Part shown: positions 3,483 through 58,075 of the stretch, piece by piece | Position numbering within the stretch: the first letter of the stretch is position 1 | Layout of the letters: each line of letters opens with the position of its first letter | Assembly: GCF_901543175.1 (NCBI RefSeq) | Contig: NZ_LR594040.1 | Coordinates: 1,116,001-1,180,000 of the forward strand | Direction of reading: 5' to 3' | DNA length: 64,000 nucleotides | Source: Streptococcus australis | Lineage (GTDB): Bacteria; Bacillota; Bacilli; Lactobacillales; Streptococcaceae | Notes under the pieces: generated by a model | Seen by the model: only the letters and a program-made list of their open reading frames with translations | The model's database searches: none | Told to the model about the DNA's origin: nothing | Made by a program: the position numbers and the translations under genes

Positions 3483-3514
3483 AAAAAAGGAAAGCACTTC
3501 TGCTTCCCTTTTTT
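3483..3514. terminator. Bidirectional terminator between the kinase gene and ffh
   Basis: An A-rich/T-rich inverted repeat: aaaaaaggaaagca, a cttc loop, then tgcttcccttttttt, with one mismatch in the stem. It lies between convergent genes and touches the ffh stop codon, and it has T runs on both strands. Confidence 0.85.
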
Positions 3515-40017: not shown

Positions 40018-41676
40018 TTAGTGACGTCCTTTGTAAGTCAAGCCTGCTAGACCAAGACTTGCAAGAAGGAAGCCTGCAAATCCAAGAATTGAATTTTGTT
40101 CTCCAGTGTTTGGTAAAGCTGTAGTTTCGGTTTTCGAAACAGGTTTGTCAGCTTTAGTGTTTGAATCTTGCCCAACAGGATTTATAGGAGCTGTTGGAGC
40201 GTTATTTAAACCAGTTTGTGGTTTGGTAGTTGGCTTGTTAGTTTCTGGTTTATCAACAGGCTTTTCTGACGGCTTCACTTCTGGTTTTGGAGTTTCTGAA
40301 GGTTTAGGCTCAGGTTTTGCTTCTTGCTTAGGCTGTTCGCTTGGTTTGACGTCAGGCTTAGTTTCTTCTGAAGGCTTGACATCCGCATCTAATTTCTTAT
40401 ATCTTAGGTATCCCTCCCTATACCCATCAGCAGCACCGTAAAAGAATGTGCTTGCTATATCATGCGTCAAGTTATAGCCTGGCATCCATGAAAAGTTCGA
40501 TACCACTTGATATCCTTCAATATCCTTGTGGATATTTATAGACTCACCAGGGTTCAGAACTCCGGTCTCCATAGATGCGATTTCCCTGCTATGCTCATCT
40601 AAATACCTAATACGGTATTTGATTGGCTCTTGTTCTTCAGCTTCAGCGTCAGGCTTTTCTGACGGTTTCACCTCTGGTTTCGGGGTTTCTGAAGGCTTAG
40701 TTTCCGGTTTTACTTCTGGTTTTGGAGTTTCTGAGGGCTTAGTTTCCGGTTTCACTTCTGGTTTCGGAGTTTCTGAAGGCTTAGGTGCCGGTTTAACTTC
40801 TGGTTTTGGTGTTTCTGAAGGCTTAGGTGCCGGTTTTACTTCTGGTTTCGGTGTATCTGAAGGCTTAGGTGCCGGCTTAACTTCTGGTTTTGGTGTCTCT
40901 GAAGGTTTGGCATCCGCATTTACCTTCTTATAATCTAGAAACATGTAATGTTCATCCATAGTACCACCAAAATATGTACTCATTATCTGGTAGTCCACAT
41001 TATATCCAGGCATCCAGCTATAATTCGAAACTACCTCATAGCCATCAATATTTTTATGGATATTGATAGTTTCACCAGGGTTTAAAGCTCCATATTCTCG
41101 AGATATCTCCTCTCCCGTATCTGCATCGAAATAATCGATACGATATTTGAGGGGCTCCTGCTTTTCTTCTTTTGGCGCTGGTTCTGGTTTTACTTCTGGT
41201 TTCGGAGTTTCAGATGGTTTTGTTTCCGATTTTACTTCTGGTTTTGGTGTTTCTGAAGGTTTGGTCTCTGGCTTAACTTCTGGTTTCGGAGTTGGTGCTG
41301 GTGCTGGATCTAACTTCTTATATTTAAGATACATATAGTTATATCCATCCACGAAACCAGAATATGTACTTAATGTATCATAATCCATGTTATAGCCAGG
41401 TAGCCACTCAAAACGTGAAACTACCTCGTGACCTTCAATATCTTTATAGATATTAACCGTTTCGCCAGGGTTTAAAACCCCAAATTCTGACGGAGCAACC
41501 TTTTCTCCTGATTCTCCGATGTAATCAATACGGTATTTTAACGGTTTCTGCTGCTCTTCCGCTTTTACAATAGAAACCCCAAAAACAGGGTTATTGGTCA
41601 AAGCTGGCGCAACAACGCCAAGAGCTGCAACAGAAAGCAAAGAAATACCAAGTTTGGTTACTTTATTCGTTTTCAT
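40018..41676 (-). CDS. LPXTG cell-wall-anchored protein with three ~79-residue repeats
   Basis: A surface protein of 552 residues. The second ATG (41676) is chosen for its spacing to aaggagg. A signal peptide ends near IVKA-EE (residue 39). Three related domains at about 45-123, 175-253 and 351-430 share PLKYRIDY, GxLNPGETxNIxKxIxGYEVVS, SWMPGYN and a closing YKKLD; they recall MucBP-like adhesin modules but I cannot assign them to a known family. They are joined by Pro/Lys/Glu linkers built from a 14-residue unit ([18 protein letters not shown]). The C-terminus has LPNTG (521-525), a hydrophobic helix and a KGRH tail for sortase. Function unknown; probably an adhesin. It lies in an insert between prsA and the O-methyltransferase gene. 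Confidence 0.93.
40648..40911 (-). repeat. 42-bp tandem repeats encoding the Pro-rich linker
   Basis: Six consecutive 42-bp units encode [14 protein letters not shown] between repeat domains 2 and 3. Two to three more copies lie in the first linker (about 41150-41300) and partial copies after domain 3. Near identity of the units favours slippage and length variation. Confidence 0.85.
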
Positions 41677-41795
41677 CATTTCCTCCTTAGGAATGTAGAA
41701 TTACTTTTTAAGGTATGCAAATACTACAAAAGGCCTAATTTTTGATTTAGTATTTCGTAAAGTTCTCCTCAACCACTTGAGCGACAAGGGTTTTG

Positions 41796-41827
41796 GTGTA
41801 TCGCGTAAGGACCGTTAAACGATACAC
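41796..41827. repeat. Dyad site A (32 bp) in the surface gene leader
   Basis: Perfect 8-bp outer arms GTGTATCG / CGATACAC around 16 bp; counted from a central AC (plus strand), 12 of 15 half-site positions match. It is related to site B (22 of 32 identical), with paired changes in the arms that keep the symmetry. Confidence 0.75.
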
Positions 41828-41861
41828 TTAAAAAACAAAAAAATACAAATCCAACACAGGA

Positions 41862-41945
41862 TCAAAACCTTGTTAAATTCGTATTTTCTGAAATATTCAT
41901 ATTGTTATTTTGAATGTTTCGCCAAACGGTCGTTAATCGAAACAT
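41862..41945 (-). CDS. Possible 27-codon leader ORF of the surface protein gene
   Basis: Begins ATGTTTCG inside dyad site B, about 6 nt after the predicted transcription start, and encodes MFRLTTVWRNIQNNN and onward to a TGA. No ribosome site could be on the mRNA, so translation would be leaderless. It is followed by a weak hairpin (gatcc / ggatt) and a T-rich run. May be a chance ORF. Confidence 0.25.
   Translation of the reverse strand: MFRLTTVWRNIQNNNMNISENTNLTRF
41914..41945. repeat. Dyad site B (32 bp) in the surface gene leader
   Basis: Perfect 8-bp outer arms ATGTTTCG / CGAAACAT and an inner AACG-AC-CGTT (minus strand), so 12 of 15 half-site positions match around a 2-bp centre. It begins about 6 nt after the predicted transcription start and lies 118 bp centre to centre from site A. 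Confidence 0.75.
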
Positions 41946-41957
41946 ATTTACGCCTTC

Positions 41958-41986
41958 ATTATAGCATTTTGTCTGGTTTTTAGCAA
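41958..41986 (-). promoter_or_regulatory. Promoter of the surface protein gene
   Basis: TTGCTA (41981-41986) and TATAAT (41958-41963), 17 bp apart on the minus strand, with an extended TGC before the -10 box. The -35 box overlaps the recombinase stop codon. It implies an untranslated leader of about 275 nt containing both dyads; the rest of the 300-bp gap holds the weak hairpin and T run, a small ctcaa/ttgag stem and the ribosome site. Confidence 0.8.
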
Positions 41987-42603
41987 GAAATTTGCGAAAC
42001 TTTTTTTCGATTGTTGGCCACATCGTTGCGTTCCAAGACTTTATAGATGGTTGAGGTCGAAATTCGTTCTGTTTTTGCAATTGTTCTGATGCTTGATTCC
42101 CCTGCTAAATACAGCTCAATAATTCTCTCCTCCTTCTCTTTCGAAATTTGCTTGGCACCTAGTTTGACGCCTTTTTCCTTGGCTTTACGAAGTCCTTCAC
42201 GAGTACGAAATCGCAAGTTTTCCAGCTCACTTTCTGCCACAAATCCTAAAATCATACAAAGTAACCTACCAATGAGCGAATCGGTTTCCAGCTTTTCATG
42301 TAAACTGACTAGCTGAATATCCGAATCATTAAATTGTTCAATCAGTTCTAGCAATTTGAACATGGAGCGAGTCAGGCGATCTAACTTATAGATAGTAAAA
42401 GTGACCTGTTTGCCTTCCTTTGAAAGGTCACAAGCCAATTTTAAGGCCTTTTCGAGTTCTGGACGTGCATTGTTGGAACCAGATTCACGTTCGATAAAGA
42501 GCTGGTCGCAGTGCTTAAGTGCCTCGATTTGCACCTCTAAGCCCAAATCTTGCTTGTGGGTTGAAACGCGTGCATAGCCGATATTGATGATGTTTTGAGA
42601 CAT
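41980..42603 (-). CDS. Serine site-specific recombinase (resolvase/invertase family)
   Basis: A 207-residue small serine recombinase. The N-terminal catalytic domain has Arg12 and the nucleophile Ser14 in GYARVSTHKQDL, the conserved Arg47 (ARPEL) and the DRLTR block (Asp75, Arg76, Arg79). A long E helix follows (AESELENLRFRTREGLRKAKEKG), and the C-terminal helix-turn-helix is about 160-195 (SSIRTIAKTERISTSTIYKVLE). All catalytic residues look intact. No transposase is nearby. Likely action sites are the two dyads just downstream of its stop codon. Its ribosome site is buried in a hairpin, so expression should be low or conditional. Confidence 0.93.
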   Translation of the reverse strand: MSQNIINIGYARVSTHKQDLGLEVQIEALKHCDQLFIERESGSNNARPELEKALKLACDLSKEGKQVTFTIYKLDRLTRSMFKLLELIEQFNDSDIQLVSLHEKLETDSLIGRLLCMILGFVAESELENLRFRTREGLRKAKEKGVKLGAKQISKEKEERIIELYLAGESSIRTIAKTERISTSTIYKVLERNDVANNRKKVSQISC

Positions 42604-42606
42604 AAA

Positions 42607-42636
42607 AATCCTCCTATTACTTGGTACAGGAGGATT
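42607..42636 (-). promoter_or_regulatory. Hairpin sequestering the recombinase ribosome site / O-methyltransferase terminator
   Basis: A perfect 9-bp inverted repeat (AATCCTCCT / AGGAGGATT, 12-nt loop). On the minus-strand RNA its 3' arm contains the AGGAGG that serves the recombinase ATG at 42603, and the stem is followed by TTTTTA, so it also resembles the terminator of the upstream O-methyltransferase gene. Confidence 0.8.
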
Positions 42637-42651
42637 GTACTATTTTTTAAT

Positions 42652-43365
42652 TTATTCCATTTCTGGTAAAGTTACATTTTCCACATTCTTTCGTAGCATG
42701 AGAATGCCGTCTCCAAGTGGAATTAAAGTCGCCGTTAAATCTGGATTGTCTAAGGTTGCGTCGAACAGTCTTTGTAAACCACGGTAAATGGTGCGTTGAC
42801 CCCGACGGACTTCCATGATATCCTTGGCAACATCGCCTCCTTGGAAAATATCATCCAAGACTACTACTCCACCAACTTCCAAGTGTTTGAGGATTTCAGG
42901 TAGAAAGACGATGTACTTGGACTTGGCCGAATCCATAAAGACAAAGTCATAAGTTTCAGTCAAGGTTGACAAGACATCGACTGCGTCTCCCTCTAGGAGG
43001 GTGATTTGCTTGCGACTATCAAACTGGGCAAAGTTTTCCTTGGCAAAGCCGATCATCTCAGGATTACGGTCAATCGTTGTAATCTTAGCATTTGGGGCAT
43101 GTTCCGCCATCAGGAGAGCTGAGAAGCCAATTGCCGTTCCAATCTCCAAAATGTTCTTGGGCTGCAGACTTTCCATGAGAAAACGGAAATATGCGACTGT
43201 TTCATGAGGAATAATGGGAATATTTTCCTTACGAGCGAAGGTTTCCAATTCTTTCAAGGAACCTGTCACCTGCTTTTGACGCTGGCGCATGAACTCTACG
43301 ATTTCTTCCTTGACAACGGGACGACGCATATTGTGATTGGCATTTTTACTATAAGACTCTACCAT
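42652..43365 (-). CDS. SAM-dependent O-methyltransferase (class I, caffeoyl-CoA type)
   Basis: A 237-residue methyltransferase of the Methyltransf_3 family. The SAM site is NILEIGTAIGFSALLMAEH; the metal/substrate region is VFMDSAKSKYIVFLPEIL, and the following VVLDDIFQGGDV gives the second acidic motif. The ATG of MVESYSKNANH is chosen; it is one base after the pepF stop codon, so translation is coupled. Substrate unknown; similar genes sit between pepF and prsA in other streptococci. Confidence 0.9.
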   Translation of the reverse strand: MVESYSKNANHNMRRPVVKEEIVEFMRQRQKQVTGSLKELETFARKENIPIIPHETVAYFRFLMESLQPKNILEIGTAIGFSALLMAEHAPNAKITTIDRNPEMIGFAKENFAQFDSRKQITLLEGDAVDVLSTLTETYDFVFMDSAKSKYIVFLPEILKHLEVGGVVVLDDIFQGGDVAKDIMEVRRGQRTIYRGLQRLFDATLDNPDLTATLIPLGDGILMLRKNVENVTLPEME

Positions 43366-43366
43366 C

Positions 43367-45169
43367 TTAAGCCAGTCCCAATTTTTCAACTAAGGCTTCA
43401 AACTCATTCAAGCGGCGTTCAAAGACTGCAAAGGCGTCGTTGAGATAGTCTTCCTTCTCCATATCCACTCCCGCTTTTCTCATGACATTGAGTGGATAGT
43501 CTGACTTACCTGCCTTGAGGTAGTCGATATAACGGTCACGGTCTTCCTGACTACCATGGACAATCTTCTCAGCCAAGGCTGAAGCAGCTGCAAAACCAGT
43601 CGAATACTGGTATACGTAGTAGTTATAGTAGAAGTGTGGAATGCGTGCCCACTCGTATTGGATCTGTGGATTGTCTTCCTTGCTGAGTCCATAGTACTCT
43701 TGGTTCAAGTCAGCGTAGAGTTTATTCAGGAAATCACTTGTCAAGACTTCTCCATTTTGGTCTGCTTGATGGATAGCATGTTCAAACTCAGCGAATTGAG
43801 TTTGACGGAAGACTGTTCCACGGAAACCGTCCAAGAAGTTGTTAAGGATGGCAAAACGAGTTGCATCGTCTTCCACTTCCTCCAATAATTTCTCCGTCAA
43901 GATATTTTCATTGGTCGTTGAGGCAATCTCAGCCAAGAAGATAGAGTAATCCCCGTAAACATAAGGCTGAGTTTCACGAGTATAGCTAGAATGCATACTG
44001 TGACCTGTTTCATGGACAAGGGTAAAGAGATTGTCTAGATTGTCCTGCCAGTTGAGAAGCATAAAGGCATTTGTATCATAAGAACCACCAGAGTAGGCAC
44101 CAGAACGCTTGCCTTGGTTTTCATAGACATCAATCCAACGCTCGCTGAAGGCACGTTTAACACGGCTCAAGTAATCATCACCCAAGACTGCCAAGGCTTC
44201 TTCTGCTTTCTTCAAGGCTTCCTCATAAGTAAAGCTGTATTCTACTGAAGATAGCGGTGTGTAGACATCGTACATCTTGAGATCAGAAATCCCCAAGATT
44301 TTAGAACGCAGGTTAAGGTATCGATGCAAGAGTGGCAAATGCTTGCGAACTGCTGCTACTAGATTGTCATAGACACTTTCTGGAACAAAGTTTGCTGCGA
44401 GGGCTGCATGGCGAGCACTCTTATAGTTGCGAACTTTTGCGCGGTAGTTTTGCACCTTAACATTTGTCTGCAAAGTCTTAGCGTAAGTGTGTTGGAATTG
44501 CTCATAAGTCGCATAGAGGGCTTCATAGGCACCACGACGCACTTCACGGTTTTTAGACTCCATCAAACGGATGTATGTACCGTGTGAGAGTTGCACTTCC
44601 TTGCCTTCATCATCAAGGACATATGGGAAGCTAATATCCGCATTGTCCAAAATAGCGAAGGTTTCACTAGCAGCGCCAAAGATTTCTCCTGCTCCAGCAA
44701 GTAATTCTTCCTCACGTTGCGAAAGAACGTGGTCTTTCTTTTGCAAGAGCTTGTCAAAAAAGTGTTTGTAAACTTGGAGTTTTGGTTGAGCTTCTAGGAA
44801 GGCCGCATACTGCTCTTCGCTAATCTCCATAAACTCAGGTTCATAGAATGAAAAGGCTTGTTCTAACTGACTGTATAGGGTCATTGCCTTGGCATAGTAC
44901 TCTTGATACTTGGCTTCACGCGTGTCCTGGTCATTTTTCATATGCGCATAGACATAAAGCTTTTCAACTTGGCGTTCCAAGTCAAGTGAGAATTCTGTAA
45001 TCTCAAGCAAACTGTCTGCACTATCCAAGAGATGCCCTTCATACTGAGATGCTGTTTGTACTTTTTCAGTTAAATCTTTCAAGGCTTCTTCCCAAGCCTG
45101 ATCTGTTGGGTAGATTGTCGAAAGATCCCATGTATCTTTTTCATTTATTTCATGTCGTTGTAATACCAT
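43367..45169 (-). CDS. pepF: Oligoendopeptidase F (M3B family)
   Basis: A 600-residue zinc metallopeptidase cleaving oligopeptides in the cytoplasm. The zinc motif [12 protein letters not shown] (near residue 385) gives HEXXH, and the third ligand Glu lies in [11 protein letters not shown]. The [21 protein letters not shown] motif is typical of PepF. Ribosome site ggagg. It follows coiA in the same direction by 18 bp and is coupled to the methyltransferase gene, so these late genes may also be read from the coiA cin-box promoter. Confidence 0.95.
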
Positions 45170-56397: not shown

Positions 56398-58053
56398 ATG
56401 TCATTTGACGGATTTTTTTTACACCACATGGTTGAGGAATTGCGATGCGAGTTGGTCAATGGTCGCATTCAGAAAATCAATCAGCCTTTTGAACAAGAGT
56501 TGGTCTTGCAAATCCGCAACAATCGCCAAAGCCATCGCCTGCTCCTTTCTGCCCATCCCGTTTTTGGACGCATTCAGCTGACCCAAACGACCTTTGAAAA
56601 TCCAGCCCAACCTTCTACTTTTATCATGGTTTTGAGAAAATATTTACAAGGCGCCGTAATTGAGTCCATCGAGCAAATCGAAAATGACCGAATCGTAGAA
56701 CTAACAGTTTCCAATAAAAACGAAATTGGGGATCATATCCAGGCTACCTTGATTATCGAGATTATGGGGAAACACAGCAATATTCTTCTTGTCGATAAAA
56801 GTAACCACAAAATCCTCGAAGTCATCAAACACGTAGGCTTTTCACAAAATAGCTACCGCACCTTACTGCCAGGCTCAAGCTATATCGCTCCGCCAAGTAC
56901 CGAGTCTCTCAATCCTTTTACAGTCAAGGATGAGAAACTCTTTGAAATCCTGCAAACAAAGGAATTAACAGCAAAAAATCTTCAAAGCCTCTTTCAAGGT
57001 CTAGGTCGTGATACGGCAAACGAACTGGAAAGTCTATTGGTTCATGATAAACTATCAACTTTCCGTAACTTTTTCAGTCAAGCAAGCAAACCATTTTTGA
57101 CAGAGACTTCTTTCAGCCCAGTTCCTTTTGCGAATCGTGTAGGAGAGCCTTTTGCCAGTCTTTCTGATCTTCTGGATACCTACTACAAAGACAAGGCCGA
57201 GCGCGATCGCGTCAAACAGCAAGCCAGTGAACTGATTCGTCGTGTTGAAAATGAACTTCAGAAAAATCGACATAAGCTGAAAAAACAAGAAAAAGAGTTA
57301 CTGGCGACAGACAATGCTGAGGAATTTCGTCAAAAAGGGGAATTGTTGACAACCTTCCTTCATCAAGTACCTAATGACCAAGATCAGGTTACCTTGGACA
57401 ACTACTACACCAATCAGCCTATCACAATTGCTCTTGATAAGGCACTAACTCCCAGCCAGAATGCCCAACGCTATTTTAAACGTTACCAGAAGCTCAAAGA
57501 AGCTGTCAAATATCTGACTGAACTGATTGAAGAAACCAAGGCCACCATTCTTTATCTGGAAAGCGTTGAAACGGTTCTCAACCAAGCTGGACTGGAGGAA
57601 ATCGCTGAAATCCGTGAAGAATTGATCCAAACAGGTTTCATTAGAAGACGCCAACGTGAAAAAATCCAGAAACGCAAAAAACCAGAACAATATCTGGCGA
57701 GCGATGGCAAGACCATTATCTATGTCGGTCGAAACAATCTTCAAAACGAAGAATTGACCTTTAAAATGGCCCGCAAGGAAGAACTTTGGTTCCATGCCAA
57801 GGATATTCCTGGAAGCCATGTCGTCATCTCAGGAAATCTTAATCCTTCTGACGAAGTGAAGACAGATGCGGCCGAACTAGCTGCCTACTTCTCCAAAGGG
57901 CGCTTGTCAAATCTAGTTCAGGTGGATATGATTGAAGTTAAAAAACTCAACAAACCAACAGGTGGCAAACCCGGTTTTGTTACTTATACTAGACAAAAGA
58001 CCCTCCGTGTCACACCAGACCCAGAAAAAATCGCATCTATGAAAAAATCCTGA
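56398..58053 (+). CDS. pavA: Rqc2/NEMF homologue RqcH; fibronectin-binding protein PavA
   Basis: A 551-residue protein known in pneumococcus as adherence and virulence factor A. The start gives MSFDGFFLHHMVEEL with aaggagag upstream. Domain order: NFACT-N (1-about 190), helix-hairpin-helix and long coiled coil (about 270-330 and 365-420, rich in Lys/Glu), then the NFACT-R domain with EELWFHAKDIPGSHVVI (near 460). In bacilli RqcH adds Ala tails to nascent chains on split 50S subunits for degradation; surface fibronectin binding lacks a signal peptide or anchor here. Monocistronic. Confidence 0.96.
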   Translation: MSFDGFFLHHMVEELRCELVNGRIQKINQPFEQELVLQIRNNRQSHRLLLSAHPVFGRIQLTQTTFENPAQPSTFIMVLRKYLQGAVIESIEQIENDRIVELTVSNKNEIGDHIQATLIIEIMGKHSNILLVDKSNHKILEVIKHVGFSQNSYRTLLPGSSYIAPPSTESLNPFTVKDEKLFEILQTKELTAKNLQSLFQGLGRDTANELESLLVHDKLSTFRNFFSQASKPFLTETSFSPVPFANRVGEPFASLSDLLDTYYKDKAERDRVKQQASELIRRVENELQKNRHKLKKQEKELLATDNAEEFRQKGELLTTFLHQVPNDQDQVTLDNYYTNQPITIALDKALTPSQNAQRYFKRYQKLKEAVKYLTELIEETKATILYLESVETVLNQAGLEEIAEIREELIQTGFIRRRQREKIQKRKKPEQYLASDGKTIIYVGRNNLQNEELTFKMARKEELWFHAKDIPGSHVVISGNLNPSDEVKTDAAELAAYFSKGRLSNLVQVDMIEVKKLNKPTGGKPGFVTYTRQKTLRVTPDPEKIASMKKS

Positions 58054-58075
58054 TTTCAAGTGAAATCAGGATTTT
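58044..58075. terminator. Bidirectional terminator between pavA and deoD
   Basis: A perfect 15-bp stem aaaatcctgatttca / tgaaatcaggatttt with minimal loop, overlapping the pavA stop codon; T runs outside the stem on both strands. Confidence 0.93.

Follow-up and report, generated by a model that had tools for sequence, protein, structure and literature searches.

A probable invertible-terminator phase switch between a serine recombinase gene and an LPXTG surface-protein gene in Streptococcus australis

DNA inversions that flip a promoter are well known. The Hin/Gin-type serine invertases act on kilobase-sized segments, have a Fis-bound enhancer and invert a promoter or coding sequence, and in the Mpi system of Bacteroides surface genes are switched by a serine recombinase, with the promoter inside the inverted segment. 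RecV, the recombinase of C. difficile cwpV, is a tyrosine recombinase. According to the cwpV report, both the promoter and the reading frame lie outside the inverted segment, the imperfect 21-bp repeats are 195 bp apart, and in the OFF orientation an intrinsic terminator is proposed in the leader of this cell-wall protein gene, the hairpin arising at the junction of repeat and segment (PMC2784873). The pneumococcal PsrA is described as inverting repeat-flanked coding stretches of hsdS genes (PMC12324116), and a 2025 inverton study states that enriched motifs merit follow-up, for example as transcriptional terminators (PMC11892184). Within the open-licence literature searched, an invertible leader terminator was found only for C. 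difficile cwpV (PMC2784873), the phrase "invertible terminator" was absent and no streptococcal or serine-recombinase example was among the matches listed; supplementary inverton tables may include such loci.

The locus described here lies in a window of 64,000 nucleotides from S. australis (contig NZ_LR594040.1), which is the whole stretch of DNA that was analysed and to which the coordinates refer:

40018-41679, minus strand: LPXTG surface-protein gene (553 aa), proposed as what the switch controls (TIGR01167, 22.2 bits, cutoff 15.9)
41796-41827, minus strand: site A, the gene-side crossover site, minus-strand centre GT
41828-41913, no strand assigned: invertible segment between the sites, reversed in four relatives (G149, G290, G247 and G066)
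41839-41888, minus strand: terminator-like hairpin facing the surface gene, from folding, with a U-rich stretch next to it at about 41829-41838
41914-41945, minus strand: site B, the promoter-side crossover site, minus-strand centre AC
41958-41986, minus strand: predicted promoter TTGCTA-17-TATAAT, its -10 box preceded by TG; it lies outside the segment, where the recombinase gene ends, and points to the surface gene
41980-42603, minus strand: small serine recombinase gene, 207 aa, the proposed invertase (Pfam PF00239, 3.9e-32; PF02796, 1.3e-06)
42652-43389, minus strand: O-methyltransferase gene, named from sequence

Read along the minus strand, the elements are O-methyltransferase, recombinase, predicted promoter, site B, segment, site A and LPXTG gene, in that order. 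In our view this locus is likely an invertible-terminator phase switch, in which a leader terminator is turned round by the neighbouring serine recombinase and of which the window holds the OFF state; the segment is probably a self-contained on/off switch.

Like cwpV, the locus has its reading frame outside the segment and a promoter predicted outside it (with a score no better than chance), and its terminator-like hairpin is strong in one orientation by folding, where a simple scan finds none. Unlike cwpV as described (PMC2784873), the sites are dyads of about 30 bp, 118 bp apart, and the whole predicted terminator lies inside the segment; unlike RecV, the recombinase next door is of the serine class. 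By analogy, the locus would work like cwpV, yet is not a member of the cwpV type. It shares with the Hin/Gin systems the serine recombinase family and inverted sites with a 2-bp centre, and differs in its segment of only about 0.1 kb. As with Mpi, a serine recombinase would switch a surface gene, but the sole predicted promoter is outside the segment, and the recombinase scores 45.7 against the Mpi family (NCBIfam PRK13413), far under the cutoff of 272. The small size of the segment, well below what is usual for a serine invertase, raises a mechanistic question of its own. With PsrA/hsdS the locus shares programmed DNA inversion in a streptococcal host; hsdS, as described, has no leader terminator (PMC12324116). 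If our reading is right, the logic of cwpV extends to another class of recombinase and, among oral streptococci and other Lactobacillales, to many different surface genes, and surface-protein phase variation in these commensals becomes directly testable by orientation PCR.

A first-pass annotation of the window had described two dyads with perfect 8-bp arms, and recomputation from the window sequence returned them unchanged at 41796-41827 (A) and 41914-41945 (B). Each site has outer arms paired at 8/8 positions and half-sites at 12/15 around a 2-bp centre, and the two sites are identical at 22/32 bases in direct and inverted alignments alike. Dyads of equal quality number four in the window, compared with a mean of 0.08 and a maximum of one in 60 Markov-1 resamples; the remaining two are at 3483 and 58044. 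When up to three mismatches were allowed, a degenerate A/B site pattern matched the whole 1.93-Mb genome at these two places only, and the same pattern read backwards had no match across that genome. The sites are inverted by centre, as had been claimed, because the plus-strand centres are AC at A and GT at B, with a spacing of 118 bp. An Rfam search of 41500-42200 gave two matches, both far under their gathering scores. We note that the dyad at 58044-58075 (32 bases, half positions paired 15/15) is possibly an ordinary terminator.

The survey on which the comparison is based covered 284 genomes of the genus. The recombinase was found at E <= 1e-50 in 43 genomes, giving 53 loci, all of which were examined: 21 close loci (at least 80% recombinase identity) and 32 sister-group loci (about 49-60%). 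Two close loci were left out as not intact, G274, whose switch region reads as N, and G324, which lacks the segment and the promoter-side site, and their low-scoring "inverted" calls were excluded from the counts; 19 intact close loci remained, the window included. Alignment of the gap from other recombinase-carrying genomes, a check proposed with the first-pass annotation, found both orientations, the inter-site stretch of about 75-87 bp being of the window type in 15/19 of these loci and reversed in 4/19 (G149, G290, G247 and G066). Compared with its nearest window-type relative, the inner segment of G247 matches that of G062 at 86/87 positions when flipped and at 59/101 as read. The corresponding values are 75/76 and 50/84 for G290 against G258, 79/87 and 58/101 for G149 against G087, and 73/76 and 47/80 for G066 against G167. 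In the reversed loci the inner half-sites are swapped and the outer ones kept, which places the crossover at the 2-bp centre; the gene-side outer half-site of G066 is the exception. An invertible segment thus has A and B as its crossover sites, and the earlier suggestion of a short invertible segment is borne out by four relatives in which it is reversed and has its breakpoints in the central dinucleotide. In G066 (L007/L111) the outer half-site on the gene side, together with the sequence next to it, duplicates the promoter-side flank, perhaps as a recombination by-product or a draft-assembly effect.

The neighbouring recombinase would be the enzyme responsible. It has a resolvase catalytic domain and a C-terminal helix-turn-helix, with PF00239 and PF02796 both above their curated cutoffs. 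Small serine recombinases have catalytic Arg/Ser and Asp-Arg-x-x-Arg residues, and the YARVST and KLDRLTR motifs of this protein align with gamma-delta resolvase. As for a serine DNA invertase, the locus has two inverted sites that share a central dinucleotide, and inversion is the product seen among its relatives. The nearest solved structures are gamma-delta resolvase and a DNA invertase. The former is the nearest by sequence, and this, with flanks that permit the direct 22/32 alignment, is what could be said for the alternative that A and B are two subsites of one res-type locus resolving direct repeats. The complementary centres, however, make the sites inverted, the product observed is inversion and the site pair is single-copy in the genome, so that this reading, also put forward in the first-pass annotation, is unsupported and in our judgement highly improbable. 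As the sole function of the sites, a res-type locus is refuted by the inverted relatives.

Whether the inversion belongs to the past, with orientations that differ between lineages whose cells no longer switch, bears on the reading as a live switch. A recombinase tree was built for 50 of the 53 loci, G247, G049 and G023b being out as their uninterrupted recombinase is too short. The three placeable reversed loci need three state changes on this tree, and well-supported branches force two. Opposite states are found on short branches, with G066 beside G258 and G290 beside the G152 group, and the centres have remained complementary through several dinucleotide changes; both observations argue against a purely historical inversion. 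Consistent with it are the sampling of one genome per species, the recombinase frame, which is interrupted in G247 (L108, inverted) and in G049 (L109, window-type), so that those switches may be locked, and the sister group, in which 0/32 loci are inverted. We consider this alternative unlikely. The lack of an ON form among the 32 sister loci is also the weak point of the switch model, which would have to assume strong bias, counter-selection or regulated switching in that group. One further locus, G041, received a low-scoring "inverted" call, and folding puts its hairpin gene-ward (-23.6 vs -4.7).

The central dinucleotides were followed across lineages with a scan for pairs of ACG-NN-CGT cores, allowing up to one mismatch per core, 100-132 bp apart and within 330 bp after the recombinase; complementarity of the centres was not required. 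The best core pair was nevertheless complementary in 19/19 close loci and 32/32 sister loci. Outside the genus, 16 order-level loci from ten genomes gave a core pair in 13, complementary in 12 of those 13, and among loci at 32-40% identity a core pair was found in 1/12, also complementary. In control stretches taken upstream and further downstream, respectively, core pairs were present in 0/19 and 0/19 close loci, 0/32 and 2/32 sister loci, 0/16 and 1/16 order-level loci, and 1/12 and 0/12 of those at 32-40% identity. The complementary centres found are AC/GT, GT/AC, TT/AA, AA/TT, AG/CT and AT/AT, and TT/AA has at least two independent origins on the recombinase tree. Such joint change at two sites about 115 bp apart is the demand of strand exchange at the central dinucleotide. 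A search by arm similarity near more distant recombinases (L019-L031) found a site pair in 1/13 loci; the core-based search does better (12/16 order-level loci) because the arms vary. The core search missed four order-level loci, of which L168, L171 and L160 look alike by eye and stand outside the counts. The same layout recurs in other Lactobacillales with other recombinases and other downstream genes.

The variation of the arms also bears on a reading in which the dyads are two RNA hairpins of the leader, kept for RNA structure, with loops GACCGUU and AACGGUC that could pair. The perfect outer arms in the window and the loop complementarity are in keeping with this idea, but arm pairing is lost in several relatives, there is no within-site covariation and the half-sites are exchanged in the inverted loci. 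The hairpin reading, which the first-pass annotation had listed, found no support for these reasons, and we give it very little credence. The accompanying remark that arm differences are paired so as to keep symmetry stands for the window and fails as a general rule, for example in G258, G302, G259, G152, G167, G084 and G087.

Beyond the earlier reading, folding suggests that the crossover segment carries a directional terminator-like hairpin. The gene-ward strand of the window segment folds at -18.9 kcal/mol (z -6.5) and the opposite strand at -8.8 (z -3.3). In a search for a hairpin plus U-tail, the window-type close loci had a gene-ward hairpin of -13.2 to -22.4 in 15/15 cases, whereas in the four reversed loci the gene-ward values were -2.8 to -9.1, compared with -11.6 to -22.2 on the other strand. 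A gene-ward hairpin of -6.5 with a good U-tail persists in the reversed locus of G066. The sister loci gave -16.0 to -29.8 in 30/30 folded, G274b and G301 having been omitted, and among the order-level loci with a complementary core pair the hairpin is gene-ward in 11/12, L154 having it on the reverse strand only. Many of the stem pairs are A-U or G-U. Across the alignment 92.4% of stem cells are paired, compared with 32-54% when the stem is slid, and 11 cells are changed on both sides (0/500 shuffles as high); these two-sided changes fall on only two stem pairs (311/500 shuffles as high), and 3/20 pairs fail in 7-12 of 17 sequences. A simple consensus terminator scan called none at the locus, and the predicted terminator therefore rests on folding and on the custom hairpin-plus-tail search.

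That scan result, the predicted nature of the terminator and the hairpins that remain on both strands leave some room for a segment that inverts with no effect on termination, the two orientations differing instead in RNA stability, in translation, in how the leader RNA folds or in an antisense promoter. Against this stands the recurrence of the strong one-way hairpin with its U-tract in all window-type close loci, all folded sister loci and all but one of the order-level loci with complementary cores, together with the lack of any promoter-like site detected inside the segment, and we regard such an effect as improbable. In L154 (G584), which lies outside the genus, the sole terminator-like hairpin between the cores points away from the gene, and this locus is an apparent ON form.

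For the invertible-terminator switch, the promoter is taken to be fixed. The predicted promoter has 10/12 consensus matches, in a scan that finds one such site where 1.6 are expected by chance; it is the single promoter-like site in 41600-42100, and it lies outside the segment. By eye, close relatives have a similar sequence in the corresponding position, and most of the sister loci viewed have TTGACA-like boxes. This position fits the earlier proposal of a promoter that stays fixed while inversion alters the leader behind it. In the proposed mechanism, transcription would start from this promoter, where the recombinase gene ends, and run towards the surface-protein gene, through a leader in which two crossover sites, their 2-bp centres complementary and about 118 bp apart, enclose an invertible unit. 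Bound to both sites, the recombinase would cut at the centres and invert this unit. In the window orientation the leader RNA would form the hairpin followed by the U-tract and transcription would stop (OFF). In the inverted orientation the G-U pairs of the stem would become A-C mismatches and the U-tract would leave the gene-ward strand, allowing read-through (ON).

The genes that would be switched differ from genome to genome. The window gene scores marginally below the cutoff for Pfam Gram_pos_anchor (19.6 vs 20). An open frame with a signal-like start follows the switch in 20/21 close loci, the exception being G274, where the region reads N, and an LPXTG-type end is found in 16/21 within the stretch examined; the downstream proteins vary among these genomes. 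Sister-group switches precede genes for LPXTG, other secreted, small membrane or lipoprotein-like proteins, no frame being returned in a few loci, and in G111, which belongs to another family, the downstream frame is of LPXTG type. The O-methyltransferase was matched in 273/279 genomes, and the neighbourhoods of the best 30 loci were examined. In nine of these the recombinase lies downstream of it, while in the other 21 a prsA-like gene follows after 69-71 bp and neither recombinase nor surface gene was found, indicating that recombinase, switch and surface gene were gained or lost together at this place.

Sister-group cassettes (L013, L069, L012, L071, L014, L068, L084 and L091 among them) are bounded by inverted repeats, a CCTGCTACAATAG-like sequence upstream of the recombinase start in 30/32 loci and a CTATTGTAGCAGG-like sequence after the gene-side site in 28/32, with up to three mismatches. 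Within-genome sister pairs show about 900 bp of homology between the bounding repeats, ending close to them, in 4/7 cases. We lean slightly towards a portable Lactobacillales phase-variation cassette of about 0.9 kb, consisting of recombinase, promoter and invertible terminator and spreading as a unit (with CCTGCTACAATAG/CTATTGTAGCAGG as its bounds in the sister group), which would impose random ON/OFF expression on any downstream surface or secreted gene. Of the phage records searched, 451 have a relative, all at less than 60% identity; the best 5000 plasmid matches are likewise all below 60%, and no relative was found in viral contigs. By eye, L019 (G111, of another family) has the same layout with bounding repeats CCTGCTACACTA and TAGTGTAGCAGG, both changed together.

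The genome of the window has a second recombinase, L064 (G000:C1:1680922-1681515), with 54% identity to the first. A separate site pair (GT/AC) and a terminator-like hairpin accompany it, ahead of a small membrane-protein gene. Finally, the ribosome-binding site of the window recombinase lies inside a hairpin, AATCCTCC...GGAGGATT (42607-42636, minus strand), which is kept in 21/21 close loci at -7.6 to -16.7 kcal/mol, also in those loci that have another upstream gene, and may block recombinase synthesis from read-through transcripts.
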